DNA of 24,498 nt from positions 1 to 24,498 of the IMG/VR virus record IMGVR_UViG_3300032296_002723; one strand, 5' to 3'. Numbering within the stretch: position 1 is the first letter of the stretch; each line of letters opens with the position of its first letter. This document shows, piece after piece, positions 2,996-18,844 of the stretch. A program made the position numbers and the translations under genes. A model generated the notes under the pieces. The model saw nothing but the letters and a program-made list of their open reading frames with translations. It did not search any database and was not told the origin of the DNA. This stretch comes from a virus.

Positions 2996-3484
2996 ATGAG
3001 AAACTTATTTAATTTTAATTCTTTTGTTGGATTTTTGAACGAATCGGAGGAACAATCTAAATCTCTAGATAAGATATTGAAGTCTAGAGGTGGAAAAGGA
3101 GAAGATGAAAAAATCCCAGGATATCATTTTGATAATATCAAGAAGATTTTTGGAAACTCTGAATATGTTACCAGATTTAAAATAGCCCAAGCTCTAAAGG
3201 CAATGGACATGGATTTTTTCCCCACTAATTCTAAATTTCCAAATCCAGAAGTTAATAGAAATTTATCACAGAAAGACGGGATGATTTTGACTTTCTATAT
3301 AGGTGATCCAGAACAGAATAAGAAAATGGATCAAATTGGAGAAGACATTCTTTCTATAGTAAAACCGGTGGTTGATTTAATGGATAAAGACCCAGAAGGA
3401 GTTTACGGATTTTCTACCCTTATGTCCTTCCAAAGACCTGAAATTAAGAAGGCTAAAGCTCTAGCTTCTAATCTAAAGAAATAG
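2996..3484 (+). CDS. Small protein with capsid-targeting-like N-terminus; function unknown
   Basis: A 162-aa protein of unrecognised family. The frame is open further upstream (an ATG at 2912), but that region overlaps tube copy B; the start at 2996, 10 nt after the tube stop, is preferred because it gives an N-terminus (MRNLFNFNSFVGFLNES) matching those of the genes at 15163, 15500 and 15966. That N-terminus resembles the T4 capsid targeting sequence MKTYQEFIAE, and its FLNE fits the (L/I)xE prohead protease site. The rest is charged and globular with no known motif that I can see. It ends in TAG, rare in this window, and is followed by a strong terminator. A head-packaged internal protein is inferred, not shown. 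Confidence 0.75.
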   Translation: MRNLFNFNSFVGFLNESEEQSKSLDKILKSRGGKGEDEKIPGYHFDNIKKIFGNSEYVTRFKIAQALKAMDMDFFPTNSKFPNPEVNRNLSQKDGMILTFYIGDPEQNKKMDQIGEDILSIVKPVVDLMDKDPEGVYGFSTLMSFQRPEIKKAKALASNLKK

Positions 3485-3503
3485 ACTTTCGAGAAACTTT
3501 TTG

Positions 3504-3541
3504 AAGGAGAGTATTCTATAATGGAAATACTCTCCTTTTTT
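3504..3541 (+). terminator. Rho-independent terminator after the sheath/tube block
   Basis: A perfect 12-bp inverted repeat, AAGGAGAGTATT (3504-3515) and AATACTCTCCTT (3526-3537), with a 10-nt loop and a run of T to 3541. It lies 20 nt after the stop of the 2996 gene and ends the structural block. Confidence 0.88.
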
Positions 3542-3551
3542 GTGTGATGGG

Positions 3552-3559
3552 TATATAAA
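3552..3559 (+). promoter_or_regulatory. Candidate late promoter box TATATAAA
   Basis: TATATAAA lies between the upstream terminator and the gp26-like gene, 17 nt before its ATG. It resembles the T4 late promoter TATAAATA recognised by gp55, and a gp55-like factor is encoded at 16697. The same core recurs before other genes (4925, 9018, 12077, 15150). AT-rich background makes a single hit weak; position after a terminator is the main support. Confidence 0.5.
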
Positions 3560-3576
3560 ATAAAGAAGATAAAATT

Positions 3577-4740
3577 ATGGATTTTGAAAACAAAGGAATT
3601 TTAGGAGGTATTTCTCCGGAGGAGATATTAGCAAGAAAAGAAGCACAAGGAGGAGTCGTTTATGATGATCCCTTTGTTCCGGAATTACTCCCAGATCCTT
3701 CCCTTAAACCGGAAGGAATGATGGATGCAAAACCCCCAGTAGCAGAAGAAATAAAATCCTTACCCAAACAAAATTTAGGTAATTTGTACGAAGATCCAGA
3801 GGATCTTACTATCCCTAAACCCCCTCAACAAGAGATACCTGTTCTGGAATCATTAGGAAGAGTAGAAACTAAAAGCACTGCACCTTCTCCAGAATTTAGT
3901 GCTGGACTAGAGATGGGATGGAAAAATCTCCCCCTTCATTTACTACCCTCCAAGGGACTTTTTTATCCAGCTGGAACTAAGATAGCAATCAGACCTGCAG
4001 ACGTAAGAGAAATTAAACATTTTTCTGGGATTGATGAGGACGATCTTTTGGACTTGAATGAAAAATTAAACTACATCATTAGTAAGTGTAGCACAATGAA
4101 CTTTCCCGATCAAGGGGTAGTTTCATATAAAGATTTGAAAAACGAAGATAGGTTTTTCTTGGTCATGGCAATCAGAGACTTAACTTTTGTTCAGGGTGAA
4201 AACAGAATCATCATTACTCCTGAAACTAAGTGCGAAGATAAAAATGCTTGTCCTGTTAACCAGGGAATAGAACTTCGAACCGGAGTGTTATCTTCTTATG
4301 AAATAGATTCTAGAGTGATGAAATATTACTCTCCAACTACTAGAAATTTTGTTTTCCCCGTTAGAAAGCTAGGAAAAGAAATTACAATGACAGTTCCTTC
4401 TATCGGAGTAATGGATGTAATTTCGGAGTTTATTATTCGATCAGAAAAGAAAGGAATTGAAATAGATGAGAGTTTTATTAAAATATCCCCTTTTATCTTT
4501 CCTGAGTGGAGGGGACTAGACGACAGAAAAATACTTCAAAGGATGAGGGAATCTGATGATTGGTCCAAAGAGGAATTTTCTCTCTATTTTGAACTCTGTG
4601 AAACTATAAAAATTGGGACAGAACTAGATATTAATTTGAAGTGTCCTACCTGCGGTGCCGAGGTCACCGCCCCTATAACCTTTCCCAGCGGGTTCAAATC
4701 TCTTTTCGTTATTTCAGATATCTTTAGAGAACTTCTATGA
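3577..4740 (+). CDS. Baseplate hub protein, T4 gp26 type
   Basis: Baseplate hub distal protein of the T4 gp26 / T4_baseplate type, 387 aa, longer than T4 gp26 (about 208) because of a Pro/Glu-rich N-terminal extension of about 110 residues. The conserved part starts near residue 125 with LPSKGLFYPAGTKIAIRPAD, then DLNEKLNYIISKCS, and NEDRFFLVMAIRDLTF, the pattern seen in gp26-like and tail-chaperone-like proteins. Cys219, Cys225, Cys356 and Cys359 (the last pair in CPTCG) could bind zinc. It ends in TGA, the only TGA stop of the window, and a +1 reading frame carrying a plausible C-terminal tail continues directly behind it (see 4754-4912). A programmed frameshift or a broken C-terminus is therefore possible. 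Confidence 0.78.
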   Translation: MDFENKGILGGISPEEILARKEAQGGVVYDDPFVPELLPDPSLKPEGMMDAKPPVAEEIKSLPKQNLGNLYEDPEDLTIPKPPQQEIPVLESLGRVETKSTAPSPEFSAGLEMGWKNLPLHLLPSKGLFYPAGTKIAIRPADVREIKHFSGIDEDDLLDLNEKLNYIISKCSTMNFPDQGVVSYKDLKNEDRFFLVMAIRDLTFVQGENRIIITPETKCEDKNACPVNQGIELRTGVLSSYEIDSRVMKYYSPTTRNFVFPVRKLGKEITMTVPSIGVMDVISEFIIRSEKKGIEIDESFIKISPFIFPEWRGLDDRKILQRMRESDDWSKEEFSLYFELCETIKIGTELDINLKCPTCGAEVTAPITFPSGFKSLFVISDIFRELL

Positions 4741-4753
4741 TCTGAAGTTTAGA

Positions 4754-4912
4754 ATGTGGAAGGAACACGGTCTAGATCCAGAATGGATAGAAAGTATTCC
4801 TTACTACGAATATCAAATTTGGATAGACAAGCTTAACAAAGCAGTAGATAAAGAGAATAAAGAATCTCTAGAGAAATCTGGAAAGATTGAGCTATTTAAT
4901 TTCTCTAAATAG
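4754..4912 (+). CDS. Small +1-frame reading frame behind gp26-like gene; possible frameshift extension
   Basis: A 52-codon frame from ATG 4754 to TAG 4910-4912, in +1 relative to the gp26-like gene. The frame is open back to 4679, overlapping the end of that gene, and reads ENFYDLKFRMWKEHG, then LDPEWIESIPYYEYQIWIDK and a charged tail. Density of Trp/Tyr and absence of stops look like real protein. The pattern of a short helical segment with a P-x-W-I-x-x-x-P-Y-Y-E motif resembles the C-terminal parts of phage tail assembly chaperones, many of which are made by ribosomal frameshifting. Options are an independent small gene starting at 4754, a frameshift product of the gp26-like gene, or a sequencing or mutational frameshift. 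No Shine-Dalgarno precedes ATG 4754. Confidence 0.55.
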   Translation: MWKEHGLDPEWIESIPYYEYQIWIDKLNKAVDKENKESLEKSGKIELFNFSK

Positions 4913-4924
4913 GGATCCCTCTGA

Positions 4925-4932
4925 TATATAAA
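4925..4932 (+). promoter_or_regulatory. Candidate late promoter box (GATATATAAAG)
   Basis: TATATAAA inside GATATATAAAG (4923-4933), the same 11-mer found at 15148-15158. It ends 14 nt before the ATG at 4947. If it works like a T4 late promoter the leader would be only about 9 nt, compatible with SD-less initiation. Confidence 0.55.
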
Positions 4933-4946
4933 GAAAAAATTTACTA

Positions 4947-6449
4947 ATGATAGATTCTCAAAAAATATTAAAAGAGCTGTCAGATCTCACTAGAAACTTA
5001 GATGTTCTCGTTAAGGAACTAAGAGAAAATAATAAGTCTTCTGAGAAAGTACAGGAGGTCGTTAAAAAGGCAGCCGAAGAAGCTATCAAAAGAGACGAGT
5101 CTGCTGTTAAGAGGGATGAAACAGTAATAAAAAACGAGGAATCTACAAAAAAAGAGGAGAAACCGACCAAACCTGAAAATTCGGAAAAACAAGAAAATCC
5201 TGCTACTGAGGTCATCAAGGAGATGCAAAAATCCTCAGAAGAAGCTCAGAAAGATAGGGAGGGGATGTTTTCCAAGCTTCTGGGTAGCATTAAAGAAGGG
5301 TCCGACGAGTCCAATCAAGCTCTTAAACAAGCAGGACTACAAGCAGTGGGAGCTACTACTAATGCTCTCTTAAAAGGAGGTAGTCTAAAAGATGCTGCTA
5401 AACAGGGAGTTAGTGGCGGATTGTCTTCTTTAGCCGGCCAGGCTGCTTTCGGTCTTGGTGGATTTGCAATCAAAAAAGGAGCAGAAGGAATATCTAAGCT
5501 TTTCTCTAAAAAAGTTAGCACCAAAGACGAGCTAAAAGAAAAGGAAGAAGTAGAACCTGCTGAAAAGGAGGGGGAAGAGAAAAAGGAAAAGGGAAAGAAA
5601 AGGGACATAAAAGCGGACCTTAAATTTTTAGAGTCTCTACAAAAGAAGAAAGAAGGGGAAACTCCAGAAGGAGAAGACAAGAAAGGACTTTTATCCAAAC
5701 TCGGTGAATTTTTCTCCGCAAAAAAAGACAAAGAAGAACTTCCTACCGGAATAGTTGAATCAAAGACAACACTTCAAGATAGAGTTAAAGAAATTTTTAG
5801 CAGTCAGAAGGAAAGTACATCCTCTTCCAAAGAAGTTAAAGAAACTTCTGTTCTTTCTAAAATTATGGATCTAGCAGGTGGAAAAGGAGGATCTGAATCG
5901 GGAGAAAGCTCCGGCAAAGAGGGGACAGGAGGATTAGTCAGCAGTGTTGTAAAAGGAGCAGTTCTATCTAAAGGAGGTGGAGGAGAAGGGGGAGTTTTAG
6001 CCAATGAAGGGGTAAAAGAAGAAATTTTATCCAAAGGGGCAGCTCTTGCGGAATCTATTGCTCCAAAATTGGGATTTTCTGCAGAGGACATATCTTCTGG
6101 AAAAGAAGCACTAGCAGATTTTAAGAAGGAAGAACCAAAACTTCAGTCTCCTGCGGGTAAATCAAAAACCACCGAAAAGGATAAAGAGGAAGAAGATGAC
6201 GAGGGGGAAAGTTCCTCTACTGATACCAGTCAGTCTTCTAGTTCTTCTAGCCAGTCTAGCCAGACTACTTCAGCGGGAGCTCCCCCGGCAGAAGCAGGAA
6301 AATCTGCAGCAGGGGGTTCGGATTCTATCACAGCTCAAGATTTAAAAGACATAAAAGCACTTCTGTCTGCTATTAACACATCTCTAAATTCACCTCTACA
6401 CATCAAAGACAATAAGCCATTTAGGCCAACTTCTAATATGTTAGAATAA
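4947..6449 (+). CDS. Low-complexity coiled-coil protein, probably structural; function unknown
   Basis: A 500-aa protein I do not recognise. Residues 1-55 are a predicted coiled coil (ILKELSDLTRNLDVLVKELR), followed by a Lys/Glu-rich linker with repeated KRDE/KKEE patterns. Around residues 110-185 is an Ala/Gly-rich amphipathic or weakly hydrophobic stretch (LKGGSLKDAAKQGVSGGLSS and AGQAAFGLGGFAIKKG). Two further charged or Gly-rich sections and a Ser/Gln/Thr-rich linker (about residues 415-445) lead to an ordered C-terminal helix (DLKDIKALLSAINTSLNS). The Lys/Glu and Ser bias explains the long spurious open frames on the other strand. Between a gp26-like hub gene and dCMP deaminase, and behind its own promoter-like box, it may be a virion or assembly protein such as a hub-associated or scaffold-like component, but this is only context. 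Confidence 0.8.
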   Translation: MIDSQKILKELSDLTRNLDVLVKELRENNKSSEKVQEVVKKAAEEAIKRDESAVKRDETVIKNEESTKKEEKPTKPENSEKQENPATEVIKEMQKSSEEAQKDREGMFSKLLGSIKEGSDESNQALKQAGLQAVGATTNALLKGGSLKDAAKQGVSGGLSSLAGQAAFGLGGFAIKKGAEGISKLFSKKVSTKDELKEKEEVEPAEKEGEEKKEKGKKRDIKADLKFLESLQKKKEGETPEGEDKKGLLSKLGEFFSAKKDKEELPTGIVESKTTLQDRVKEIFSSQKESTSSSKEVKETSVLSKIMDLAGGKGGSESGESSGKEGTGGLVSSVVKGAVLSKGGGGEGGVLANEGVKEEILSKGAALAESIAPKLGFSAEDISSGKEALADFKKEEPKLQSPAGKSKTTEKDKEEEDDEGESSSTDTSQSSSSSSQSSQTTSAGAPPAEAGKSAAGGSDSITAQDLKDIKALLSAINTSLNSPLHIKDNKPFRPTSNMLE

Positions 6450-6485
6450 TTTTTTGAGATTTCTCGGAAAAATTAAAAACCAGTT

Positions 6486-6494
6486 CGTATATTT
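6486..6494 (+). promoter_or_regulatory. Candidate promoter element CGTATATTT
   Basis: CGTATATTT occurs here, 28 nt before the dCMP deaminase start, and again at 21418-21426 before the DNA ligase gene. Both genes belong to DNA metabolism, unlike the TATATAAA-preceded structural genes. It is followed by the imperfect palindrome TTTCATTATAAGTGAAA. Only two examples, so weak. Confidence 0.35.
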
Positions 6495-6522
6495 CATTAT
6501 AAGTGAAATAGAAAGATAAAGG

Positions 6523-7083
6523 ATGATTCAAACCAACCAGAAAAATATGGAGTTTTTCCAAATGACTTTTGGAGACCCCGAAAAATTAGCATCGAATTTT
6601 TGGAAAGCTTCCCCCGAAGATATGAGCTTTAAATATGGAACTTCCATTGGATCTCTCGATCTAGACGAAAAGACACAAAAGACTGATTTAGTTTATCTTA
6701 AGATGGCAGAAGTCTGGGGGACAAATTCTCATTGCAAGAGAATGCAGGTAGGATGTTTAATGGTTAAAAATAAATCCATCATTTCGGATGGATATAATGG
6801 GAGTCCCTCGGGGTTCCCAAATAAGTGTGAAGATGAAGGAAATACTACTCTACCGTATGTTCTTCATGCAGAAGCAAATGCAATTACTAAATTGGCAAAG
6901 AGCACAAACAGTTCAGACGGATCCACAGTCTATATTACAGCTTCCCCCTGCTTTGAGTGTTCTAAACTCATCATTCAGTCAGGAATTAAAAGAGTGGTAT
7001 TTAAAGATCTTTATAGGAAAACAGAATCCCTTAGCTTCCTGTTTCAAGCAGGAATTGAAGTGGTTAGAATTGGAGAATTATAA
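6523..7083 (+). CDS. cd: dCMP deaminase (ComEB / T4 Cd type)
   Basis: Zinc-dependent deoxycytidylate deaminase converting dCMP to dUMP, feeding dTMP synthesis during phage replication. 186 aa, typical of the family. The zinc site is complete: His115-Ala-Glu117 in HAEANA and Cys143-Phe-Glu-Cys146 in SPCFEC. The segment around residues 68-95 (CKRMQVGCLMVKNKSIISDG then YNGSPSGFPNKC) matches the substrate-binding region of dCMP deaminases. The first 50 or so residues form a non-conserved extension (PEKLASNFWKASPEDMSF); the ATG at 6523 is retained because the frame is continuous and there is room after the previous stop, though a later start is possible. The sigma gene follows after 30 nt. Function is well supported. 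Confidence 0.92.
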   Translation: MIQTNQKNMEFFQMTFGDPEKLASNFWKASPEDMSFKYGTSIGSLDLDEKTQKTDLVYLKMAEVWGTNSHCKRMQVGCLMVKNKSIISDGYNGSPSGFPNKCEDEGNTTLPYVLHAEANAITKLAKSTNSSDGSTVYITASPCFECSKLIIQSGIKRVVFKDLYRKTESLSFLFQAGIEVVRIGEL

Positions 7084-7113
7084 ATTATAAACTAAGAAAA
7101 TATACAAAGAGAA

Positions 7114-7725
7114 ATGCAGAAAGAAATTAAGAAAGAGAAGAACATTCAGGTACTTGCAAACGATTTTATTAAGACAAGAGACGAAAGAAGCTTTAAATAC
7201 CTTTATGAAAGAGTCAAGCCCGGAGTATTAAATCATTGTTACGGAATTTTAAAAGACACAGAGCTAGCAGAGGATGCCTTCCTGAATGCGATGGCTAAAG
7301 TCTGGCAAAAGATAGATCAATATGACTCATCTAGAGGTAATTTTTCTACGTGGTGTTATAATATTGCCAGAAATGAATCACTCTTACTTCTAAAAACTAG
7401 AAAGAAATATGTCCATCTATCTTTAGAAGATCTGGATTATTCTTCCTCCAAGAATGAGGAGAAGAATCCTTCTTATTCTATAGAAGAGGACCCACTATGG
7501 AGGTTTGCTAATGAGGGTGAGACTATAGATGACATGTACGAAACTGCCATCGAGGAAATAAGATCCCTTCCTGTCTTATACCGAGACATTATGATCGATA
7601 GAGAAATTAATGGAATGAAGTACAAAGACATTGCGGAGAAATACGGGATCAAAAAAAGATCAATTGCCACAAGAATTAGAAGAGCAAGAAATAAAATTCG
7701 TCAAAATATGGAGGAAAACAAGTAA
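7114..7725 (+). CDS. ECF-like sigma-70 family factor
   Basis: RNA polymerase sigma subunit of the small (sigma2 plus sigma4) type, 203 aa. Residues about 24-95 form sigma region 2: RSFKYLYERVKPGVLNHCYG, DTELAEDAFLNAMAKVWQK, then IDQYDSSRGNFSTWCYNIAR. A linker rich in Ser/Glu follows, and residues about 144-200 form region 4 with a helix-turn-helix, SLPVLYRDIMIDREINGMKY then DIAEKYGIKKRSIATRIRRA. It would direct host core polymerase to a phage promoter class. It is distinct from the gp55-like factor at 16697, so the phage encodes at least two sigma factors. The start is fixed by the ATG 30 nt behind the deaminase stop; the next gene starts 27 nt downstream. Confidence 0.9.
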   Translation: MQKEIKKEKNIQVLANDFIKTRDERSFKYLYERVKPGVLNHCYGILKDTELAEDAFLNAMAKVWQKIDQYDSSRGNFSTWCYNIARNESLLLLKTRKKYVHLSLEDLDYSSSKNEEKNPSYSIEEDPLWRFANEGETIDDMYETAIEEIRSLPVLYRDIMIDREINGMKYKDIAEKYGIKKRSIATRIRRARNKIRQNMEENK

Positions 7726-7752
7726 TTTCTTCTATAATGAATAAAAAGATAT

Positions 7753-8196
7753 ATGATTGCAATATTTAGATTTTTTAAAGTTTTAAAGGAAATTTCCTTA
7801 TATCGAGAATATCTCAAAATAATCAAAAGGGAGTCTCTAGATTCTCCCGAATGGGCTAGACTTAGACTCAGAAAGGATTGGATAGGTAGAATTTATACGG
7901 TTTTCAATCTTCCTCTAGAAGTAACCAAGTCTCCAGACTTTCCGAAAGTCTCTAGACCTGCATTTGTGTTTGATCAGATAAAACCCATAAACGACTATTT
8001 AACTAAATTAAATCTTCAAGAACTAATATCTCCTCTCATAAAACCAATCGAGGGAACTGACGAAGAATCTTTCCTAGTACTATATTACTTTATGTTCCGT
8101 CAGATTTCTATATTATGGATTCTTAGATTCTTTGCGGAGATTTCTGCTATAGTTTTCATTTTCCTAAAGTGGGACTGGATCATTTCTTTGTTCTAA
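7753..8196 (+). CDS. Small protein with C-terminal membrane segment(s); function unknown
   Basis: A 147-aa protein with no family I recognise. The N-terminal two thirds is basic and soluble-looking (YREYLKIIKRESLDSPEWAR), with a motif FVFDQIKPINDYLTKLNLQE. Residues about 105-147 are strongly hydrophobic and aromatic (FLVLYYFMFRQISILWILRF, then ISAIVFIFLKWDWIISLF), consistent with one or two membrane passes. The start codon overlaps a GATATATG sequence. It sits between the sigma factor and the nuclease, seven nt before the latter, so the three are likely co-transcribed. Confidence 0.75.
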   Translation: MIAIFRFFKVLKEISLYREYLKIIKRESLDSPEWARLRLRKDWIGRIYTVFNLPLEVTKSPDFPKVSRPAFVFDQIKPINDYLTKLNLQELISPLIKPIEGTDEESFLVLYYFMFRQISILWILRFFAEISAIVFIFLKWDWIISLF

Positions 8197-8202
8197 TTTA
8201 TT

Positions 8203-9006
8203 ATGATTTCTGAAGATTTTAAAAAATCCATAGAAAAAAAGCTGTCGGTTTTTAAGGATCCCCACTTTATATTCGAAGAGGAAGCTCACACGTATCACTA
8301 CAGTGATGTAAAGTATGATTCCGTAACTTCCTATATCAAGAGATTTAAAACTCCATTTGACAAAGAATATTGGTCTAAAAAGAAAGCAGCAGAAAGAGGA
8401 GTTGATGTTTCAGTTGTTTTAGGAGAATGGCAAGGGAAGGCGGACGTTGCAAACGATCTTGGAACTAGAGTCCATAAGTGGATAGAAGACTTTTGGAGTG
8501 GAAATGCTAGAGAACTAACCAAGGAAGATGATGAAGATTTTATTGAAAGGATTGGAAAGTTCATGGATCTCTACGAGAAAAAATTTAAAAATTTAGTCCC
8601 ACTAACCTCCGAGCTTAAGATCTTTTGTAGAAAATGGAGACTTGCCGGAACTATCGACCAACCTTTTTTAATGTGGGACGAAAAACAAAACAAGGTTCTT
8701 TTCTTAATAGGAGACTGGAAAACGAACAAGGAATTTCGATTTGACGAACACCCCAAGGGTAGATATAAAAAACTACTGCATCCATTTTCCCATCTTTGGG
8801 AAAATCATCTAAATGAATATTCTATTCAGGTGAGTTTATATCGACTAATGCTAGAGGAAGAGATAGGGATAGAATCTCACGGGGGATTTCTCTGTCATAT
8901 TGGACCAGAAGGACCTGCGAAAATCCACCCTATTAAAGACTTAAGGGAACCCCTTAAAGTTTATCTAACCCATAATAGAGAAGAATTTGATATATTCGAT
9001 GTTTAA
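8203..9006 (+). CDS. Cas4/RecB-like PD-(D/E)XK exonuclease
   Basis: Predicted DNA nuclease of the PD-(D/E)XK superfamily, 267 aa, closest in motif layout to Cas4/AddB/RecB-type exonucleases. Visible motifs in order: GTRVHKW (Gly87, His91), SELKIF (Glu137), AGTIDQ (Asp152), GDWKTNK (Asp171, Lys173) and the C-terminal QVSLY (Gln209, Tyr213), which together give the full metal-binding set plus the RecB-type Q-x-x-x-Y motif. I see no four-cysteine iron-sulphur cluster as in true Cas4, so it is more like stand-alone phage RecB-like nucleases. A role in recombination, replication or DNA end processing is likely; the DNA substrate cannot be told. Confidence 0.85.
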   Translation: MISEDFKKSIEKKLSVFKDPHFIFEEEAHTYHYSDVKYDSVTSYIKRFKTPFDKEYWSKKKAAERGVDVSVVLGEWQGKADVANDLGTRVHKWIEDFWSGNARELTKEDDEDFIERIGKFMDLYEKKFKNLVPLTSELKIFCRKWRLAGTIDQPFLMWDEKQNKVLFLIGDWKTNKEFRFDEHPKGRYKKLLHPFSHLWENHLNEYSIQVSLYRLMLEEEIGIESHGGFLCHIGPEGPAKIHPIKDLREPLKVYLTHNREEFDIFDV

Positions 9007-9017
9007 TTGAAACTTTT

Positions 9018-9025
9018 TATAAATA
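9018..9025 (+). promoter_or_regulatory. Candidate late promoter, exact TATAAATA
   Basis: An exact match to the T4 late promoter core TATAAATA, 26 nt before the ATG at 9052 and just after the nuclease stop. With the terminator at 9599 it would frame a single-gene transcript. Confidence 0.6.
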
Positions 9026-9051
9026 TAGACCTAAAATAAAATAAAAAAATA

Positions 9052-9579
9052 ATGACTAAATCATCTAAAACTGCCCCGCTAGCTTCTAGTGAAATTCCAG
9101 CTCCTTTTTTGACTCCTGCTGGAGGAGATTATGCTGACACCTTCATCAATAAGATTGACCACGATAAGGTTAAAAGCATCGAAGATCAGATTAAAAATCT
9201 GAAAGAGAACAATTCTAAAAAAGTTTATGCAGTAAAAATGACAGCAGAACTTTTAGGAAATTTGATTAATTTTATTGAAAAAGATGCAGAGTGGAACCAA
9301 GCCGAAGCTTTGGGAATTATTGAAATTCATAAAGTATTAGTTAAGGTTAAAAAAGGAGGAGTGAAAGACGGTACCATTTTTATGGAAGGACTTCCTTTAG
9401 AAGCAACTCACTACTTCATCTCTAAATCTAAGGGAAAAGGTCTCAGAGAAGCTGAAAAATTCTTGGATCTTTATAAGCCTCTCTCTATCGCTTTAGAAGA
9501 GGTTAAAAAAGATGCGGAAGCAATTAAGTCTTTAGAAAAAGACTTGGTAGCAGTTCAACAGGGACTTGAAGTAGCTTAA
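9052..9579 (+). CDS. Conserved-looking soluble protein, monocistronic; function unknown
   Basis: A 175-aa protein I do not recognise. The N-terminus is Pro/Ser-rich and flexible (TAPLASSEIPAPFLTPAGGD), followed by helical segments (KVKSIEDQIKNLKENNSKKV), a mixed alpha/beta centre (LGIIEIHKVLVKVKKGG) and a helical C-terminus (IALEEVKKDAEAIKSLEKDL). There is no catalytic motif. The gene stands alone between an exact TATAAATA box and a strong terminator, which suggests abundant late expression, for instance of a virion or assembly protein. That is inference from context. Confidence 0.78.
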   Translation: MTKSSKTAPLASSEIPAPFLTPAGGDYADTFINKIDHDKVKSIEDQIKNLKENNSKKVYAVKMTAELLGNLINFIEKDAEWNQAEALGIIEIHKVLVKVKKGGVKDGTIFMEGLPLEATHYFISKSKGKGLREAEKFLDLYKPLSIALEEVKKDAEAIKSLEKDLVAVQQGLEVA

Positions 9580-9598
9580 TATCTAAAATAAATTACTC

Positions 9599-9627
9599 AA
9601 AAGAGCACATTTATAGTGCTCTTTTTT
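9599..9627 (+). terminator. Rho-independent terminator
   Basis: AAAAGAGCAC (9599-9608) pairs with GTGCTCTTTT (9616-9625) around the loop ATTTATA, with T's to 9627. It follows the 9052 gene by 19 nt and precedes the promoter-like box of the next operon. Confidence 0.9.
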
Positions 9628-9657
9628 GTGTTTGTAGGTAATTCCCCGAAAGAAAGA

Positions 9658-9664
9658 TATATAG
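9658..9664 (+). promoter_or_regulatory. Candidate promoter box (GATATATAG)
   Basis: GATATATAG at 9656-9664, just downstream of the terminator and 24 nt before the ATG at 9689. Same GATATATA core as at 4923, 12075 and 15148. Position between terminator and a new operon supports it. Confidence 0.45.
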
Positions 9665-9688
9665 TAAATCTAATTAAAAATTAAAAAT

Positions 9689-9976
9689 ATGAATAAACTA
9701 GACAATTTTTTATCAAAACATGGAAGTAAATTAATTATAGTTCTTCTAATTTTGACCTATTTTAAATCTTGCGGAACTTCATCTGAGGTTAATAAGATCA
9801 AAAAAGAGTTTAAAGCTCAACAAGAAATAATCCAATCACTACCTACCAGAAAAGATCTTCAGATTGAAGGTTTAAAGGCAGAAAAGAGGATGATCCAGTC
9901 GGTAGACAGAAAAATTTTAGATGTTAACAGACAATCTGAAATCGATAAAGAAATAGAATCTCTACAAAAGAAATAA
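9689..9976 (+). CDS. Small membrane-anchored coiled-coil protein; function unknown
   Basis: A 95-aa protein. Residues about 13-25 (SKLIIVLLILTYF) form one membrane anchor, followed by KSCGTSSE and a charged coiled coil to the end (NKIKKEFKAQQEIIQSLPTR and the following residues). The Cys after the membrane segment has Phe-Lys-Ser before it, which is a poor lipobox, so lipidation is not claimed. Size and layout (one anchor plus a coiled coil) are compatible with a spanin-like or membrane-accessory protein, but no lysis gene is seen nearby. It is the first gene of a four-gene operon. Confidence 0.75.
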   Translation: MNKLDNFLSKHGSKLIIVLLILTYFKSCGTSSEVNKIKKEFKAQQEIIQSLPTRKDLQIEGLKAEKRMIQSVDRKILDVNRQSEIDKEIESLQKK

Positions 9977-9980
9977 TTTG

Positions 9981-10787
9981 ATGAAGAATAAAATTGTACA
10001 TAGGTTCATTATAGGAACTTTTGTATCTCTATACCTTTTGGTTAGTGTTATCTCTACCATACACGTTATAGATTTCTTTAAGCTTTCAAATCCTTATTGG
10101 TTGGCAGTTTCTCTTGCAGTTGCTTTCGAACTTGGAGCTGCTGCTTCTCTGGCTTCTCTGATTATCCTGGATAAAATGAATAAGACTCTAGTTTGGGTTC
10201 TTTTTTCCGCAATTACTCTAATGCAGATGCAGGGAAACATGTATTATGCTTTTGTGAATATGCAGAACTTCCAAGGTTGGTCTGAACTTTTTGGACTAAT
10301 AGAGGAAGATATAATTTATCAAAAGAGAGTACTAGCAGCAGTTTCTGGAGCTATTCTTCCGCTAGTTGCATTGGGATTCATTAAATCTCTAGTTGACTAC
10401 ATTAAGCCAGAAAATAATCCTTCCCCTTCTATTATAGTGGAGGAAGATCCCAAGAAGGAAGAAGAAATTGTTACAGAAGAAATCCCCGCAGAGGAAGAAA
10501 AAATTGAGGAGACACAATCCGAGTCCTCTTCTCCAGAGGAGGAAATTCCTTCTAATGAAACGGAGGAAGAGACTCAATCGATTACAGAAGATCCTCAAAT
10601 AGCAATAGAAGAAACACAAACAACCCCATCTGATCCAGTTGTCCCTGGATATTATGGAGACATTGTAATTGATGGTAATGGAGTAGTAGAAACTCAGGAA
10701 TCCCAAATATTACCTGTCAATGCCAACAAAAAAGGGAGTTTTATAGACGAATCAAGCAAGGTTTCTATAAATCCCACAAGACTTTAA
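9981..10787 (+). CDS. Four-pass membrane protein with long acidic tail; function unknown
   Basis: A 268-aa protein from ATG 9981; a TTG in frame one codon earlier (9978) is less likely. Four hydrophobic segments lie at about residues 8-28, 38-62, 68-92 and 118-137. The rest, from about 139, is a low-complexity acidic tail with repeated EE/EET/EETQ blocks (KKEEEIVTEEIPAEEEKIEE) ending in a basic, less acidic tip. Motifs such as VAFELGAAASLASLIIL in the second segment are unusual for a simple anchor. I know no matching family. It starts 4 nt after the previous stop and its stop abuts the next ATG, so the four genes 9689-12013 are translated together. Confidence 0.8.
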   Translation: MKNKIVHRFIIGTFVSLYLLVSVISTIHVIDFFKLSNPYWLAVSLAVAFELGAAASLASLIILDKMNKTLVWVLFSAITLMQMQGNMYYAFVNMQNFQGWSELFGLIEEDIIYQKRVLAAVSGAILPLVALGFIKSLVDYIKPENNPSPSIIVEEDPKKEEEIVTEEIPAEEEKIEETQSESSSPEEEIPSNETEEETQSITEDPQIAIEETQTTPSDPVVPGYYGDIVIDGNGVVETQESQILPVNANKKGSFIDESSKVSINPTRL

Positions 10788-11468
10788 ATGACTACAAATA
10801 GCCCTACATATCTTCCTGGAGCAACTGGATTTAACTACGATGGAGGAAATTCTACCGTTGGCCAGCCTTTTTTGCCACTTGAAGACGGAAATAGCACCAA
10901 CGTTTTAGCCCCAGGTGGAACTGCTCCCTTTCTGGTAGATTATGCTATTATTGCAATCAATAAAACTGCTCTTAGAAGGATAAATTTAACATTTGCTGAT
11001 TTTAACGACCCAACTAATGTTAGATTCTATAATACTGCATTAAATGTTTCTTGGCAGAAGTACACAGAGGAGACCTTAAACTTAGTCAGTTTCTTCCATC
11101 CTTTACAGTCTTTCTCTAATTATCAGAAGCAAACCTTTAATATCCCAGCAAGATCTTCCATTAACTTCGACACAGGAAACTTTGATGAGACCTTTGGAGA
11201 AGTTAGCCTTTTGATGGCACAGGCGGAATATCTTCCCCACTTTGCTGACGATCCCTTTAATATTCTTTATTGGAACTACAAAAATTCTCCTAGATATGTG
11301 ATGGGGGAATTTATGGTTTTAACCGGGGCAGTTAAAACTACTGGTCCTTGGGAGGGTTGGCAGGTTGATCCTACTCAAGACCCAGACTATGACGGAATAA
11401 CCCCAGGTTTTGTCTTTACTAACCCAACAGACTACACTGTTAGACTTTCAATTTTAACTGCTAACTAA
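10788..11468 (+). CDS. Beta-rich virion-like protein, paralogue 1; function unknown
   Basis: A 226-aa protein, Asn/Thr/Pro/aromatic-rich and poor in Lys clusters, with the composition of an extracellular or virion beta-sandwich protein. Its last 60 residues (GEFMVLTGAVKTTGPWEGW, PGFVFTNPTDYTVRLSIL) match the end of the next gene (GELMILTG, GW, GGGITITNPHDATNVKLEII), so the two are paralogues or share a domain. The ATG follows the TAA of the membrane protein with no gap. There is no signal peptide. It could be a head or baseplate decoration, a fibre base or a membrane-associated factor of the operon; I cannot decide. Confidence 0.8.
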   Translation: MTTNSPTYLPGATGFNYDGGNSTVGQPFLPLEDGNSTNVLAPGGTAPFLVDYAIIAINKTALRRINLTFADFNDPTNVRFYNTALNVSWQKYTEETLNLVSFFHPLQSFSNYQKQTFNIPARSSINFDTGNFDETFGEVSLLMAQAEYLPHFADDPFNILYWNYKNSPRYVMGEFMVLTGAVKTTGPWEGWQVDPTQDPDYDGITPGFVFTNPTDYTVRLSILTAN

Positions 11469-12013
11469 TGGCTACTAGACCTATTATATGTCCACCATAC
11501 CCAGTACCAGGATTTATTTTCTTTAAAGATAAATTCGTTCTGGAAGAAGGTAGCGTCAAAACAACTTTTTTTGATCTTTCCTCTATTCTCTCTGGGGTTA
11601 CTTCATATGCTAGATTGAAAATCAGTCTAAAAGCTAATAACTCAGTTCTTCTTAGCCAATCAGATATTGTAGACGATAAGGGATTTGCTAGATGGATTGC
11701 AATTAAAGTAGTTTATCCTGGCCCAGTCAGTCCTATTTTATATAATTCTGAACTTCCCTTCGTCCCAGGATATCCAAGGCCTACTAACGGAACCCCACAA
11801 AACCAAAAATACTTAACGTGGACTTACGAAGGAAAAACTTATCCTCTGGGGGAACTAATGATTCTAACTGGAAATCCAGCAGGATCTATAGATGCAGAGG
11901 AAATTGGATGGAATTTGTCTAGCCAAGACATTGCTTTTCCTGGGGGAGGAATTACTATCACTAACCCACACGATGCTACTAACGTTAAACTTGAAATTAT
12001 AGTAGCTAGATAA
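11468..12013 (+). CDS. Beta-rich virion-like protein, paralogue 2; function unknown
   Basis: A 181-aa protein overlapping the previous stop by one base (TAATG), typical of translational coupling. It is beta-rich with a Pro-rich start (RPIICPPYPVPGFIF). The C-terminal domain, GELMILTG to the end, resembles that of the preceding gene: GE(F/L)M(V/I)LTG, a GW about 10-15 residues later, then (T)NPxDxTxV(R/K)LxI. The N-terminal halves are much less alike. Function unknown; see the preceding gene for possible roles. Confidence 0.8.
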   Translation: MATRPIICPPYPVPGFIFFKDKFVLEEGSVKTTFFDLSSILSGVTSYARLKISLKANNSVLLSQSDIVDDKGFARWIAIKVVYPGPVSPILYNSELPFVPGYPRPTNGTPQNQKYLTWTYEGKTYPLGELMILTGNPAGSIDAEEIGWNLSSQDIAFPGGGITITNPHDATNVKLEIIVAR

Positions 12014-12029
12014 AAATTAGCAATTTTTA
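12011..12029 (+). terminator. AT-only hairpin after the 9689-12013 operon; possible terminator
   Basis: TAAAAATT (12011-12018, includes the stop codon) pairs with AATTTTTA (12022-12029) around AGC. No GC pairs and no T-run beyond the stem, so termination is uncertain; the place, between an operon end and a promoter-like box, fits. Confidence 0.3.
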
Positions 12030-12076
12030 AAAAAAGATTGAATATATAAGAGAAAATTTCCTCACCTCAAGGAAGA

Positions 12077-12084
12077 TATATAAT
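12077..12084 (+). promoter_or_regulatory. Candidate promoter box (GATATATAAT)
   Basis: TATATAAT within GATATATAAT, 22 nt before ATG 12107. A second similar box, TATATAAG, lies at 12043-12050. Together they suggest the large gene has its own transcript. Confidence 0.5.
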
Positions 12085-12106
12085 CTGTAAAAAAACAAAC
12101 GGAAAA

Positions 12107-14962
12107 ATGGATTTAATAACCAAACTACAAAATCTTAAAGAAACTACTCAATCCAGAGAAGTTAGAGATTTGTGTGAAACTTACATTTCTGAACTAAAGA
12201 GTGGAAGCTCTAACATTTCAGAGTCTCAAGTAAACCAAATCGTTGAATCTTCTAATAGTGAATCTACTATTTCTCCTCTAGAAGCTATGAGAAATGAGGA
12301 ACTAGAAAGATCCAAGTCCAGAGCTAGAATGATAGCAGAATCTTGGGGAGGAATTAACACCTTCAAGACCTCTAAAAATGCTGGTTCTTATGTGGACGGA
12401 TCTAAAGAAGAAACCCCTATAGCATCTGAAGTTCAGTCTAAGCTAAATGAAGCTCTAGAAGAAATGTCTAAATTTGACAAATCTGCTGCTTCTTTTGTTA
12501 AGACAAACAGGGTGGAAAATCTAGGAATCATGGAGTCTATCCTTTCTCTTACTAAAAAAGGAATCTATGATCACTCGGACTTTAAAATCCTGTGTGAGAA
12601 ATATGCTAATATTCTCAAGAACAAAAATGTTCCCGAATATCTAGTAATTGAAGGATTCATTAACGACTTTTCCAACTTCGGATGGGATAGCAGCGTTAAG
12701 AATACCGTTAACTCTATTATAGAGTCTTACAATGACCTAAGAACAGAAATAGAAGTTTCTAAAGCTCTTTACCAGATTTCTAACTCCGGAAGTGCTAGCT
12801 TCTACTCTCCAGTTAAAGAATCTATCTCTAAGTGGTTAGTTTCTGAGTCTAAATCTATTCCTGCTCTTTCTAGAGATCTTGGAGTTTGGTCTTTCAATCC
12901 TGTAGTTAGAAATTTGATTAACACCCTTTCCGTTTTAGAGTCAAACAATTCTAAATTGAATATTCCTACTGTTAATGGAAATTCAGAGATCAGAAAAATC
13001 TATTCTCCTGTTTTAGTAGAAGGTGGCAGAACTATCTTTGCAGTTGGAAAAACTCTTTTTGAAGGAGATGAGTACGGTGTTAGAAAACTTAGTAACAGAG
13101 ATATCTCTACTATGAATAAAGATTTCCTAGGATTACTAGAGTCTTTCTATTCTGAAGGAGTTAAAGTTGACGACAAAGGAATTTCAGTTTATGTAGGTGA
13201 TACTAAAATCTCTATCATAGAAGAAAAAGAAGAAACTAAGATTTATCTAAACAAAGATCAAGTTAATTTTAGCGACTATAATCAACTTGCTAAAGTAATT
13301 TCTCTTAGAATCTCTAAAGGTCTTGGAGTTAACGAGAGCAAAGTTATTTACGACGTAATTAAACTTTATGAAAACTTCAACAGTATAGTTGAGCTAGACT
13401 TTGCTAAAACTATCACTTCTAAAGTTTACGAAGGAGCTTCTGTTAGCTTAATCAAGTGGAACGGAAAAATGTATCTTCAGAGAGTTAACGAAGCAATGAG
13501 AGAAAATTCTCTTTTTGAAGTTAATGGATCACAAGCTGCTAACATAGTAAAAGATTTCTTGAAATATGACATTTCAGAAGGATTGACTGAATTCCTAGAC
13601 GGAGAGAAGAAGATCAAGTCTATTATGTTAAATGATAGAAAGAAAGTTATTGATAACATAGCTATAGTAGAATCAGAAATGAAGAAGATTGAGGCTTTGG
13701 TTGCTACCAACCCTCTTTATAAAGGATCTAGACAACTTTCTGAAGCTTATTCTCTTTTAGAGAAAGAACTTCAGACTTTGAAGTCTAAATGGTCTACAAT
13801 CAATGCAGAGTTGGATTCTATAGAGAATAATCCTATAGAAATCTCAGGAGATCTAATGGAGGATTCTAAATTTGCAGTAGGAGACTACGTGAAAGTTAAA
13901 GAAAACGGAAATACCGGTAAGATCATTTCGGTAGATACTACTTCTGGATCTTATACAGTTCTTCTGGACAGCGGAAAAACTGGAGACTTTGGAGTTGAAG
14001 ATATTGTAGATCTTGAAGACGCTTTCCAAAAATCTTCAGACGAGAATTCAGAAGAGGGTGAAGGTGTTAAAGAATCTACCCAGCCTTTGGCTAAAGCTCC
14101 ATCTGCAGGAAAAAACCCACAGGGAAAAACTCCTGCTCAAGTTTTAAAATCTAGCATTTCAATTGCACCTAGCTCAAAAGATCAAGAGAAGGAAGGAAAG
14201 AAAGACGTAGAAAATTTGAAGGATGCTAACCTAGAAGAAGCTCCTAAAAGCAAGAACAAATCTACAGAATATGAGGTAAACGACGAGATTGGATACAATC
14301 TAGAAGAATCTCAAGATTCTCTGGTTGTTGCTCCAGGTGGAAAATCTAATGCAGATATGTCAACCGAATTTGAAAGATCTGGTCTTAAAGCTGCTAATTT
14401 AGCTAAAGCTCCTGGTAAAGAAGAAGGAGATGCTGATTATGAAATTCACTACCCAGAGCCAAAGGGATCTAAAAAGGCTGAGATAATGGGAAATTCTAAT
14501 CTAGCTTCTGCTCCTGGAATGGGAAAATCTAAAATGGATGAGTCTGATTTATCTAAGCTAAGCTCAGATATGTCTACTGCACCAGGTTCACCAGTAGGAG
14601 ATTCTGGATATAAAGTTAAGATCAATATCCCTAAAGCTTCTAGTCCAGAAATCGATAACTTGGACACGATGAACTTAGCAAATGCTCCAGAAGAAGGTTC
14701 TAAAGTTCCTACCAAAGACACAACAAATCCTAATTTTGCTACTTCTCCAGGTAACGTAGAAGGAGATGCAGGATATGAAGTTGAGTATATCGAAACTGAC
14801 GGATCTAATAAAGCAGAAATTGATAACTTAGATACAATGAATTTAGCAGATGCTCCAGCAGCTGGAACTGAAGCTGAAACAGGTCTAGAGATTAATTCTG
14901 AAATGGGTTACAACTTGACTGAAGGTTTCGAGAGACCTAGTCCCGAACTAAAAAAAAATTAA
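12107..14962 (+). CDS. Large protein with KOW/SH3-like domain and C-terminal AP-motif repeats; function unknown
   Basis: A 951-aa protein. Residues 1-585 are mostly helical with a Ser/Asn/Glu-rich surface, including a coiled-coil-like stretch near 525-580 (RKKVIDNIAIVESEMKKIEA). Residues about 588-638 (KFAVGDYVKVKENGNTGKI, then a beta-rich ISVDTTSGSYTVLLDSG) look like a KOW/SH3-type barrel. From about 660 on, a linker-like region repeats a short motif, NLAxAPG and variants, about every 20-45 residues. The frame ends TAA just after a run of nine A's, while the -1 frame continues the same repeat style to 15141; a frameshifted product of about 1011 aa is likely or intended. It precedes genes with capsid-targeting-like N-termini, so a head core or virion role is conceivable but not shown. 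Confidence 0.82.
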   Translation: MDLITKLQNLKETTQSREVRDLCETYISELKSGSSNISESQVNQIVESSNSESTISPLEAMRNEELERSKSRARMIAESWGGINTFKTSKNAGSYVDGSKEETPIASEVQSKLNEALEEMSKFDKSAASFVKTNRVENLGIMESILSLTKKGIYDHSDFKILCEKYANILKNKNVPEYLVIEGFINDFSNFGWDSSVKNTVNSIIESYNDLRTEIEVSKALYQISNSGSASFYSPVKESISKWLVSESKSIPALSRDLGVWSFNPVVRNLINTLSVLESNNSKLNIPTVNGNSEIRKIYSPVLVEGGRTIFAVGKTLFEGDEYGVRKLSNRDISTMNKDFLGLLESFYSEGVKVDDKGISVYVGDTKISIIEEKEETKIYLNKDQVNFSDYNQLAKVISLRISKGLGVNESKVIYDVIKLYENFNSIVELDFAKTITSKVYEGASVSLIKWNGKMYLQRVNEAMRENSLFEVNGSQAANIVKDFLKYDISEGLTEFLDGEKKIKSIMLNDRKKVIDNIAIVESEMKKIEALVATNPLYKGSRQLSEAYSLLEKELQTLKSKWSTINAELDSIENNPIEISGDLMEDSKFAVGDYVKVKENGNTGKIISVDTTSGSYTVLLDSGKTGDFGVEDIVDLEDAFQKSSDENSEEGEGVKESTQPLAKAPSAGKNPQGKTPAQVLKSSISIAPSSKDQEKEGKKDVENLKDANLEEAPKSKNKSTEYEVNDEIGYNLEESQDSLVVAPGGKSNADMSTEFERSGLKAANLAKAPGKEEGDADYEIHYPEPKGSKKAEIMGNSNLASAPGMGKSKMDESDLSKLSSDMSTAPGSPVGDSGYKVKINIPKASSPEIDNLDTMNLANAPEEGSKVPTKDTTNPNFATSPGNVEGDAGYEVEYIETDGSNKAEIDNLDTMNLADAPAAGTEAETGLEINSEMGYNLTEGFERPSPELKKN

Positions 14963-15080
14963 AATCGGCTCTTAGCAAGGTTTGGGCTTTTGCTCCCGAG
15001 AACGAGGAGACAGAAGGTAAAAAACCAAAACCCGAAGTAGAAAGTCTTGAAGGGAAAATGAGTGTAGCTCCAGACGGAAA
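14085..15080 (+). repeat. Degenerate protein-level repeat with an (L/M)xxAPG core
   Basis: Twelve or so copies of an AP-centred motif: LAKAPSAG, ISIAPSS, LEEAPKS, LVVAPGG, LAKAPGK, LASAPGM, MSTAPGS, LANAPEE, FATSPGN, LADAPAA, then after the frameshift WAFAPEN and MSVAPDG. Some copies sit in a longer unit, EGDAGYEVEYxExxGSxKAE and IDNLDTMNLA(N/D)AP, repeated twice near residues 845-855 and 900-915. The DNA is not identical between copies. Likely flexible binding or cleavage linkers. Confidence 0.7.
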
Positions 15081-15141
15081 AACTAAAAAGTCTGAAGGTA
15101 CACTCATTTCTCGTGAAGAAGAAGGAGAAGAAAAAGAATAA
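14950..15141 (+). CDS. -1 frame extension of the 12107 gene (probable frameshift product)
   Basis: The -1 frame is open from 14941 to TAA 15139-15141 and has no ATG near its start. It reads KKKLKSALSKVWAFAPENEE, later SLEGKMSVAPDGKTKKSEG, ending in a Glu-rich tail, so it carries two further copies of the AP motif of the upstream protein. The junction is an A9 run (14950-14958) containing A AAA AAA in the zero frame, the classical slippery heptamer, four bases before the zero-frame TAA. Six nt later, TCGG 14965-14968 can pair with CCGA 14996-14999, and AGCAA 14974-14978 with TTGCT 14990-14994, a possible stimulator. A homopolymer sequencing error would explain the same data. Confidence 0.7.
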   Translation, partial: KKKLKSALSKVWAFAPENEETEGKKPKPEVESLEGKMSVAPDGKTKKSEGTLISREEEGEEKE

Positions 15142-15149
15142 ATTTTCGA

Positions 15150-15157
15150 TATATAAA
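15150..15157 (+). promoter_or_regulatory. Candidate late promoter box (GATATATAAAG)
   Basis: The 11-mer GATATATAAAG at 15148-15158 also occurs at 4923-4933. It ends only 5 nt before ATG 15163; with T4-like spacing transcription would begin at or next to the start codon, giving a leaderless or nearly leaderless message. Confidence 0.5.
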
Positions 15158-15162
15158 GCACT

Positions 15163-15498
15163 ATGAAAAACTTAATGACTTTTGGAGAACTCAACGAGTC
15201 TCAAATATTTGAAGCTTTCGGAAAAGGAGCAGGTAAAGGATTAAATCCCCTCTTTAAGAAAAACTTCATGGATATGGCTACTAAAGCCTATGGATACAAG
15301 GAAAGTGGAGAAACCCTTTCTAGAGAAATTGACGGAGTTAAATCTACCATCACGGTAAAAGATTCTGGAATTAAATCTAGTTTAATTGGAGATTATCCCC
15401 TAACCAAAACCAAATCGGTTGACTATGTAAAGTTCTTGAATAAAATTGGGGACGAAGCGAGAAAACAAGCTAAGAAAATAGCTAAAGAAAAAAAGTAA
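15163..15498 (+). CDS. Small protein with capsid-targeting-like N-terminus; function unknown
   Basis: A 111-aa basic protein of unknown family. It begins MKNLMTFGELNESQIF, matching the N-terminal pattern M(K/R)xxxx(F/Y)...(L/I)xE shared with the genes at 2996, 15500 and 15966 and with the T4 capsid targeting sequence; ELNE fits the prohead protease site. The body has a Gly/Lys-rich stretch (GKGAGKGLNPLFKKNF) and a C-terminal Lys/Ala/Glu helix (EARKQAKKIAKEKK). Its small size, basic charge and N-terminus recall T4 internal proteins packaged with DNA. Only 1 nt separates its stop from the TTG of the next gene. Confidence 0.78.
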   Translation: MKNLMTFGELNESQIFEAFGKGAGKGLNPLFKKNFMDMATKAYGYKESGETLSREIDGVKSTITVKDSGIKSSLIGDYPLTKTKSVDYVKFLNKIGDEARKQAKKIAKEKK

Positions 15499-15499
15499 T

Positions 15500-15961
15500 T
15501 TGAAAATCCTGGATAACTATACAGAATGGCTAAAAGAATCTAGAGAATTAACTAGAAGTTCTGGTTATGAGATTACTTTAAACCCATGGATAGTAAGACC
15601 ACTTGGCATGAATTCTACGATATGCCCAGGAGGAGGAGAAATGAGATCTTATACCGTTTATTTGAACGGGGAAGAAATCATAGGACGTAACAAATTTGGT
15701 ATGGTGGGATCTAAAGAAGGAGGTATTTTACAGGCAATTTTGCCTAATAATAATCCTGATATAGCTTTTGTTGAGAATATCAACATCCCTGAAGGATTGA
15801 GGGGAAAAGGAATTGGAGCTAAAATATATCAAGCTTTAGCCAACGAAATAAAAAGAACTATCGTCAGCTCGTCTGATAGCAGAGCAGCAGGTCCTGTTGC
15901 ATCCCAAACATCTTCATCTGAAGCTTTTTGGGCAAAACATAAAGAATTTAAACCACAATAA
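15500..15961 (+). CDS. GNAT-like acetyltransferase with capsid-targeting-like N-terminus
   Basis: A 153-aa protein starting at TTG 15500. The TTG is chosen because it restores MKILDNYTEWLKES, which matches the N-termini of its neighbours, and because the next ATG is 36 codons on. The C-terminal half has a GNAT acetyl-CoA motif: FVENINIPEGL followed by R101-G-K-G104-I-G106 (R-x-x-G-x-G) and the helix AKIYQALANEI, then a second block ending EAFWAKHKEF, the usual beta5-alpha4 end of the fold. N-terminal to that, the sheet has a plausible SYTVYLNGEEIIGRNKF stretch. An acetyltransferase of unknown target is predicted. If the N-terminus is a real head-targeting tag, the enzyme would be packaged and injected, by analogy with T4 Alt. 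The tag reading is inference. Confidence 0.72.
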   Translation: MKILDNYTEWLKESRELTRSSGYEITLNPWIVRPLGMNSTICPGGGEMRSYTVYLNGEEIIGRNKFGMVGSKEGGILQAILPNNNPDIAFVENINIPEGLRGKGIGAKIYQALANEIKRTIVSSSDSRAAGPVASQTSSSEAFWAKHKEFKPQ

Positions 15962-15965
15962 AAAA

Positions 15966-16613
15966 ATGAAAAATATTCAAACCTTTGGGGACTTTATTTT
16001 AGAGAAGAATCTCTTTTTGGGAGAAACTATATTTATAGATTCCCAGCCAGATAACTATTTTGAAGGCGTTCTATTAGAAGCCAAAAAATTTATCGATCAA
16101 AAAGAACTTGCCGACGAGGTTAAAAAATCTCTAGAGGAAGGAGAAACTGTTTATATTAAGGTTTTGGGAAATCCTCGTAGACCTGTTAAAACGGTAACAC
16201 ATAAACTTGCAAAGATGCTTGTTGAACTGATCAATTCTGTTGCATATGGCGAGTTTAGAAGAAGATGGTCTAATCTAAGTGAGGAACAATTTGATGAGGT
16301 AATTGCTACAACTTTAAAGGATGTTCTACAGGATTGGCATAAGAGTGTAGATAAACCAAACTTAACTGACGGTCAAATCTATGGAAATTTGAGAACATTG
16401 ATTAAAACTAGATTACTTGGAGCCAATAATCAATTAATGAGAAAGGTAACTAAAGAGCCTTCTGGATCTCAGCAAGTGGATTACGATGCAATAGATAGAA
16501 CTATTAATAAAATCTTAACTGGAACTACAGATAGACCTTATAGACCAGCAGTAAAAGCACCAGAGCCTGGTGAAAAGAGCTGGTTTGATTACGATCCTAA
16601 CGTTCAGGATTAA
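15966..16613 (+). CDS. Protein with capsid-targeting-like N-terminus; function unknown
   Basis: A 215-aa protein. The frame is open upstream to an ATG at 15897, but that overlaps the GNAT gene; ATG 15966, 4 nt after that gene's stop, gives MKNIQTFGDFILEKN, again the shared pattern with ILE as the (L/I)xE site. The body is mostly helical with a basic middle (YGEFRRRWSNLSEEQFDEV) and a C-terminus with Pro and aromatic residues (YRPAVKAPEPGEKSWFDYD). No motif is recognised. It ends the 15163-16613 group and a strong terminator follows. Confidence 0.78.
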   Translation: MKNIQTFGDFILEKNLFLGETIFIDSQPDNYFEGVLLEAKKFIDQKELADEVKKSLEEGETVYIKVLGNPRRPVKTVTHKLAKMLVELINSVAYGEFRRRWSNLSEEQFDEVIATTLKDVLQDWHKSVDKPNLTDGQIYGNLRTLIKTRLLGANNQLMRKVTKEPSGSQQVDYDAIDRTINKILTGTTDRPYRPAVKAPEPGEKSWFDYDPNVQD

Positions 16614-18787: not shown

Positions 18788-18844
18788 GACGGGACATATT
18801 TAAATGTTTGGTGGCAGTACTTTAAGGATCCTAGAAGAAAAAGA

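Follow-up and report, generated by a model that had tools for sequence, protein, structure and literature searches.

A candidate capsid targeting sequence on four accessory proteins of a far-T4 phage fragment

Why should four small phage proteins with mutually unrelated bodies share one N-terminal pattern? The question is raised by IMG/VR record IMGVR_UViG_3300032296_002723, a stretch of 24.5 kb which is called the window below and which, judged from its genes, is a fragment of a far-T4 phage, kin of the huge, Lak and PAU phages. The best explanation as a whole, with an estimated probability of about 0.78, is that the four proteins travel in the phage head as accessory cargo and carry a removable equivalent of the T4 capsid targeting sequence (CTS). 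The tag and its cleavage are very probable, whereas the injection of the proteins as effectors is likely with a wider margin of doubt.

The shared N-terminus

All four alike N-termini of the original prediction were located (Table 1). The common pattern consists of M(K/R), an aromatic residue at position 7 and usually another at position 10, an (L/I)xE triplet and a small residue behind it. The aromatic residue previously placed at positions 6-8 was confirmed at residue 7, but two aromatics three residues apart fit the tag better than a single one.

Short A/T-rich N-termini could resemble each other by chance or through compositional bias, since the pattern is short, was picked after viewing the proteins, and A/T-rich starts favour Lys, Asn and Phe. 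The original pattern was drawn from these same four proteins, therefore independent tests weigh more. In the window, this pattern matched 4 of the 31 open reading frames (ORFs) counted in the pattern tests and none of the 191 internal start codons. The number of matches expected from the pooled internal start-codon rate was 0.12 (P about 7e-6). The A/T-rich Bacillus phage G, in which no S77 (gp21-type) protease was found, served as a control on real N-termini and gave 2 matches in 533 ORFs, compared with the 4 of 31 in the window (P = 1e-4). A pattern derived from T4 only matched 20 N-termini in the huge phage LR756500 against 0.14 expected, and 1-2 in the window. With the same patterns, the T4 internal proteins were found again. 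Two controls, the internal starts and the phage G N-termini, led to the rejection of chance; it is also contradicted by the excess in LR756500 and by synonymous codon changes at invariant residues, and is considered extremely improbable.

In protein 1, the residues M1, N3, L4, F7, S9, F10, L14, N15 and E16 were invariant in three relatives, to which the whole protein is only about 40% identical (tag versus body, Fisher P = 0.002). In protein 2, the sequence (I/L)(F/Y)E↓AFGKG, with the cut site (↓) at residue 17, was invariant across 13 orthologues. The (L/I)xE↓S site at residue 12 was retained in all long-tag orthologues, and four relatives had a shortened, PAU-like tag, MxNLxLYE↓A. The mean pairwise identity of 13 protein 4 orthologues was 59% in the tag region and 88% in the body. 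The site (L/V)xE↓(N/T/S) at residue 20, LGE↓T in the window, was present in 13/13, the Glu of the ILE site at residue 13 was kept in 10/13, and synonymous codon changes were detected at the constant residues K2, N3 and F10. The LKE↓S site of protein 3 was seen in a single sequence. Of the four cut sites proposed originally, the LNE of protein 1 is invariant, whereas those of proteins 2 and 4 are, by the alignments, probably not the conserved ones.

Table 1. Positions of the tagged genes, their tags and the genes bordering the slot of proteins 2-4 (↓, predicted cut).
Feature	Position	Strand	Remarks
Tagged protein 1	2996..3484	+	162 aa, ATG; start MRNLFNFNSFVGFLNES; tag MRNLFNFNSFVGFLNE; predicted cut after residue 16
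Targeting tag of protein 1	2996..3043	+	Ends LNE↓S; L14, N15, E16 invariant
Tagged protein 2	15163..15498	+	111 aa, ATG; start MKNLMTFGELNES; tag MKNLMTFGELNE↓S; second, invariant site IFE↓A at residue 17
Targeting tag of protein 2 to invariant Glu17	15163..15213	+	13 orthologues aligned
Tagged protein 3, putative GNAT acetyltransferase	15500..15961	+	153 aa, TTG start; start MKILDNYTEWLKES; tag MKILDNYTEWLKE↓S
Targeting tag of protein 3	15500..15538	+	Ends LKE↓S; from sequence
Tagged protein 4	15966..16613	+	215 aa, ATG; start MKNIQTFGDFILEK; predicted conserved cut after LGE, residue 20
Targeting tag of protein 4 to Glu20	15966..16025	+	13 orthologues: M1, K2, N3, F7, F10, E20 invariant
Backbone gene, 951 aa	12107..14962	+	Upstream border of cargo slot; kept in all relatives; adjoins sigma gene in distant ones
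Late sigma factor, gp55-like	16697..17053	+	PHROG late sigma factor, E = 1.3e-14; downstream border of cargo slot

Prohead protease and scaffold-like repeats

A removable tag of the T4 type calls up a gp21-like protease, for which a check had been proposed with the original prediction. The Pfam S77 (gp21) prohead protease was detected above the cut-off in 19 of 24 related records, as well as in T4, PAU, pT24, Lak-A1, LR756500, P-SSM2 and Melnitz, but the window ends before the protease gene. In an alignment of T4, P-SSM2, PAU, Lak, LR756500 and three clade members, the T4 gp21 positions His85 and Ser140, which we take to be the catalytic residues, were invariant. In the collinear relative G002, whose portal is 93% identical to that of the window, about 9 kb separate the counterpart of the last window gene from the start of the S77 gene; by synteny, the protease gene of the window phage should lie about 9 kb past the window end. 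The clade capsid protein carries SLNE↓SAGAY at the position of FLTE↓AEIGG in T4 gp23.

The protease domain of the clade forms the head of a 660-690-aa protein, and a scaffold-like region is fused behind it. The middle of the fusion contains 13-15 matches to aromatic-xx-aromatic-(L/I/V)xE, mostly as tandem repeats about 14 residues long (YSEYLAENLDKGI), with modules such as YSEYLAE that are like the core of the T4 targeting sequence (YQEFIAE). Four such matches were found in the LR756500 protease and none in the short stand-alone proteases of PAU, P-SSM2 and Melnitz. The fusion is located at L123 17530-19608 in G002 and in L091-L104, and has a conserved C-terminal domain, too. Such fusion genes have been annotated as prohead core scaffolding and protease (PMC9723584), and the fusion-type gene of pT24 carries the annotation prohead core scaffold; the protease-scaffold fusion is thus already known by annotation.

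The proposed mechanism is as follows. The tag would be a short segment, probably a helix, whose two aromatics are spaced by three residues and which docks on the internal scaffold of the prohead. The S77 prohead protease would then cut after (L/I/V)xE and free the mature protein inside the head. The freed cargo would stay with the DNA in the head and enter the host along with it. From sequence, we infer docking, cleavage, packaging, injection and host-directed functions, the last including acetylation for one protein.

The cargo tag YEEFLLE of LR756500 and YQEFIAE of T4 would be single copies of a YSEYLAE-type module. The tag resembles one unit of the scaffold-like repeat, therefore docking by mimicry is suggested. 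The targeting tag may accordingly be a copy of the scaffold's own repeat, the cargo joining the scaffold by helix mimicry and being freed as the protease cleaves both the scaffold and the tags at the same sites. This extension is tentative, and the odds are somewhat against it. If true, huge phages would deliver dozens of different effectors via one mobile label. The repeats of the protease fusion also point to a testable mode of recognition between the T4 targeting sequence and the prohead core.

Several observations weigh against the cargo explanation. It was built on sequences, and the tag motif is short and degenerate. The S77 protease was not found within the 24.5-kb window, and protein 3 depends on a TTG start. 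In two orthologue groups of protein 4 there was no (L/I)xE anywhere and VxE was found instead. The relatives G014 and G016 showed no excess of matches under stricter patterns. N-terminal sequencing has determined the mature capsid protein of PAU as 520 of 585 residues (PMC5646251), and this mature start lies one residue past L62-M63-E64↓N65; the nearness to an LxE site counts in favour of the explanation, the offset of the cut by one residue from the motif against it. The T4-like head targeting claimed originally is nevertheless upheld in part, by the T4-type tag, the protease in relatives, the capsid LxE site and the diverse accessory bodies.

Tagged genes as exchangeable accessories

Twenty-nine window genes were compared with those of five distant relatives, whose second portal is 66-74% identical to that of the window. 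Homologues were found for 24 of the 25 untagged genes, mostly in all five relatives and otherwise in one or more of them, and for none of the four tagged genes. The tagged genes make up four of the five genes absent from all five relatives (probability 2e-4). The slot of protein 1 is closed in these relatives, with about 75-100 bp from the tube gene to the aligned start of the gene at 3577, and so is the slot of proteins 2-4, with about 240-320 bp between the gene of the 951-aa protein and the sigma gene. No ORF of at least 60 aa was listed in the closed slots. Close relatives vary at the slot, and G002 has a different tagged gene (MRIKSYLEFINEAE) ahead of protein 2; protein 3 was not found in any close relative compared. 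The tagged genes are accessory and rapidly exchanged.

This distribution bears on another explanation, according to which the tagged proteins belong to the head core itself, like gp67 and gp68 of T4; they would be packaged and cut, but then shredded or retained for assembly instead of being delivered as effectors. The PAU protein gp152, annotated as scaffolding, likewise begins with a tag, and some tagged families are clade-wide, among them a family encoded immediately ahead of the protease region (L123:14170-14964, with relatives in G008, G011, G014, G016 and G022). However, five relatives that share the structural backbone lack the four genes, which are therefore dispensable for assembly there, and the tagged bodies are diverse, some with enzyme-like domains. 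The head-core explanation is considered unlikely. The G002 copy of the clade-wide protein presumably is nucleotidyltransferase-like in our reading (GSxxNYNWTDLSDLDVHIL), and nothing was detected by Pfam in the G011 copy.

The tag could also be some other address, which would direct the proteins to tail or baseplate assembly, anchor them in a membrane or send them to a phage compartment of the infected cell. Protein 1 sits within the tail gene cluster, and protein 4 gave a weak match to the T4_baseplate family in the Pfam scan (E = 0.006, below the cut-off). In contrast, the tags are too weakly hydrophobic for a signal peptide and terminate in prohead-protease sites, and many tagged genes of PAU cluster around the portal, protease and capsid genes. 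Another address is therefore rated as very improbable, nearly as much so as chance.

Scans of the four window proteins against Pfam, PHROGs and NCBIfam gave no match above the cut-offs. Protein 3, whose start lies one base past the stop codon of protein 2, is a putative GNAT acetyltransferase by its sequence. The Pfam GNAT match had an E-value of 0.017 (below the cut-off), the RGKGIG motif fits the (R/Q)xxGxG/A acetyl-CoA motif, and mainly GNATs were matched among PDB profiles (best E 0.0013). By direct comparison, its body is similar to one tagged LR756500 protein which itself scores as a GNAT. The other IMG/VR loci fetched, the viral-contig scan and tblastn of phage records yielded no relative of protein 3. 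The structure predictions resulted in pLDDT values of 34 for protein 3 (unusable) and 54 for protein 4 (low confidence). The ORF of protein 1 is nested in a longer one that opens at 2912, inside the tube gene.

Similar tags are found well beyond the window. About 29 proteins of LR756500 start with MKYIxxYxxF(L/I)xE, like MKYIKEYEEFLLEA, and 17 proteins of PAU with MK(T/S)(L/I)xxL(Y/F)E, for which there were no internal matches. Two of the tagged PAU proteins, gp142 and gp154, carry the annotation internal capsid protein. A few tagged proteins (MKSFKQFLEEA) were detected in the cyanophage P-SSM2. The earlier statement that such sets are little known outside T4-type coliphages needs correction, as PAU, huge phages and P-SSM2 have proteins with tags of this kind, too. 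In T4 itself (AF158101, 18966-19130), gp61.1, listed as hypothetical, starts with MKTFKEFIKE and fits the targeting pattern.

A set of 54 tagged proteins of the clade and of LR756500 was compiled, largely by pattern, and their common start MKxIxxYxxFLxE is partly due to this construction. They comprise 39 unrelated bodies, including leucine-rich repeats (6) and RimK-like ATP-grasp, CHAP, peptidoglycan-binding, DUF2201 metallopeptidase-like and GNAT-like domains. The cell-wall-related CHAP and PG_binding_1 domains are on the tagged proteins L124:6239-7033 (G002) and L116:9650-10993 (G011), which suggests head-packaged wall-degrading enzymes. Three tandem paralogues with GTG starts, alike at the N-terminus (MKHLQSFSLFEARKTS), were found on the minus strand of L117 (7039-9936, G011) and are possibly a local expansion of tagged genes.

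The window phage and known systems

The gene content of the window is that of a distant T4 relative, with a tail sheath, two tail-tube copies, a gp55-like late sigma factor, head closure gp4, DNA end protector gp2, portal genes and a DNA ligase. The ORF at 22829-23776 was read by us as presumably a clamp-loader-like ATPase. According to the portal protein, the nearest sequenced phage is the 462-kb LR756500 (44%), followed by other huge phages and Lak phages, and then by Sphingomonas phage PAU and Tenacibaculum phage PTm1. Many IMG/VR contigs are closer to the window than the sequenced phages. Besides the gp55-like factor (16697-17053), the phage has a longer relative of RNA polymerase sigma factors (7114-7725). 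An in-frame TAG at 18785 breaks the first of two adjacent portal genes (18185-19801). Relatives carry Lys or Asn there, and the TAG is either a nonsense mutation or an assembly error. The side-by-side portal pair is present in relatives, too. The protein bS21, a marker of some freshwater Bacteroidota phages, was not found in the 17 records searched and therefore does not settle the host.

The principle of the T4 tag has long been known. In the literature searched, the CTS was discussed for T4, the T-evens and, by analogy, SPN3US, and not for the PAU, Lak or huge-phage relatives; neither tag families this large in these relatives nor the likeness of the tag to the repeats of the protease fusion were found there. 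At least ten internal proteins have been recorded in T-even phages, and the three of T4 specifically inhibit type IV restriction enzymes of the host (PMC12373910). If the cargo explanation is true, a sequence-readable N-terminal pattern predicts which proteins are injected by a large class of jumbo and huge phages that are uncultivated, with about 30 such proteins in one genome. Because the T4 internal proteins proved to be such inhibitors, each tagged set would narrow down the candidates for proteins of counter-defence or host takeover. Judged from these sets, tagging looks like a widespread phage route for delivering proteins into bacteria along with the DNA.

The phiKZ-like phage SPN3US has ejection proteins which, similarly, are head proteins with N-terminal propeptides cut by the prohead protease and are ejected into the host (PMC5694885). 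In contrast, their propeptides are mostly longer than 100 residues, and only one is of CTS length. In PAU, unrelated proteins (gp131-133, gp142-146, gp149-150, gp152-154 and others) share one N-terminal tag that ends in an LxE site, beside an S77 protease; the tag, however, has the different consensus given above, and the protease and the scaffold are separate genes. The closest likeness is to IPI, IPII, IPIII and Alt of T4, in which a short N-terminal propeptide is common to unrelated accessory proteins. An aromatic-xx-aromatic followed by (L/I)xE is shared as well, and so are, by the sequences of relatives, an S77 protease in which the His and Ser of T4 are conserved and a capsid protein with an LxE processing site. 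Unlike in T4, the clade tag sequences differ and vary inside one genome, a predicted cut site can be as far as about 20 residues from the N-terminus, protease and repeat-bearing scaffold-like region form one fusion protein, and far larger cargo sets are possible, as in LR756500. The tag system is that of T4, and its scale and the repeat-bearing protease fusion set this variant apart.

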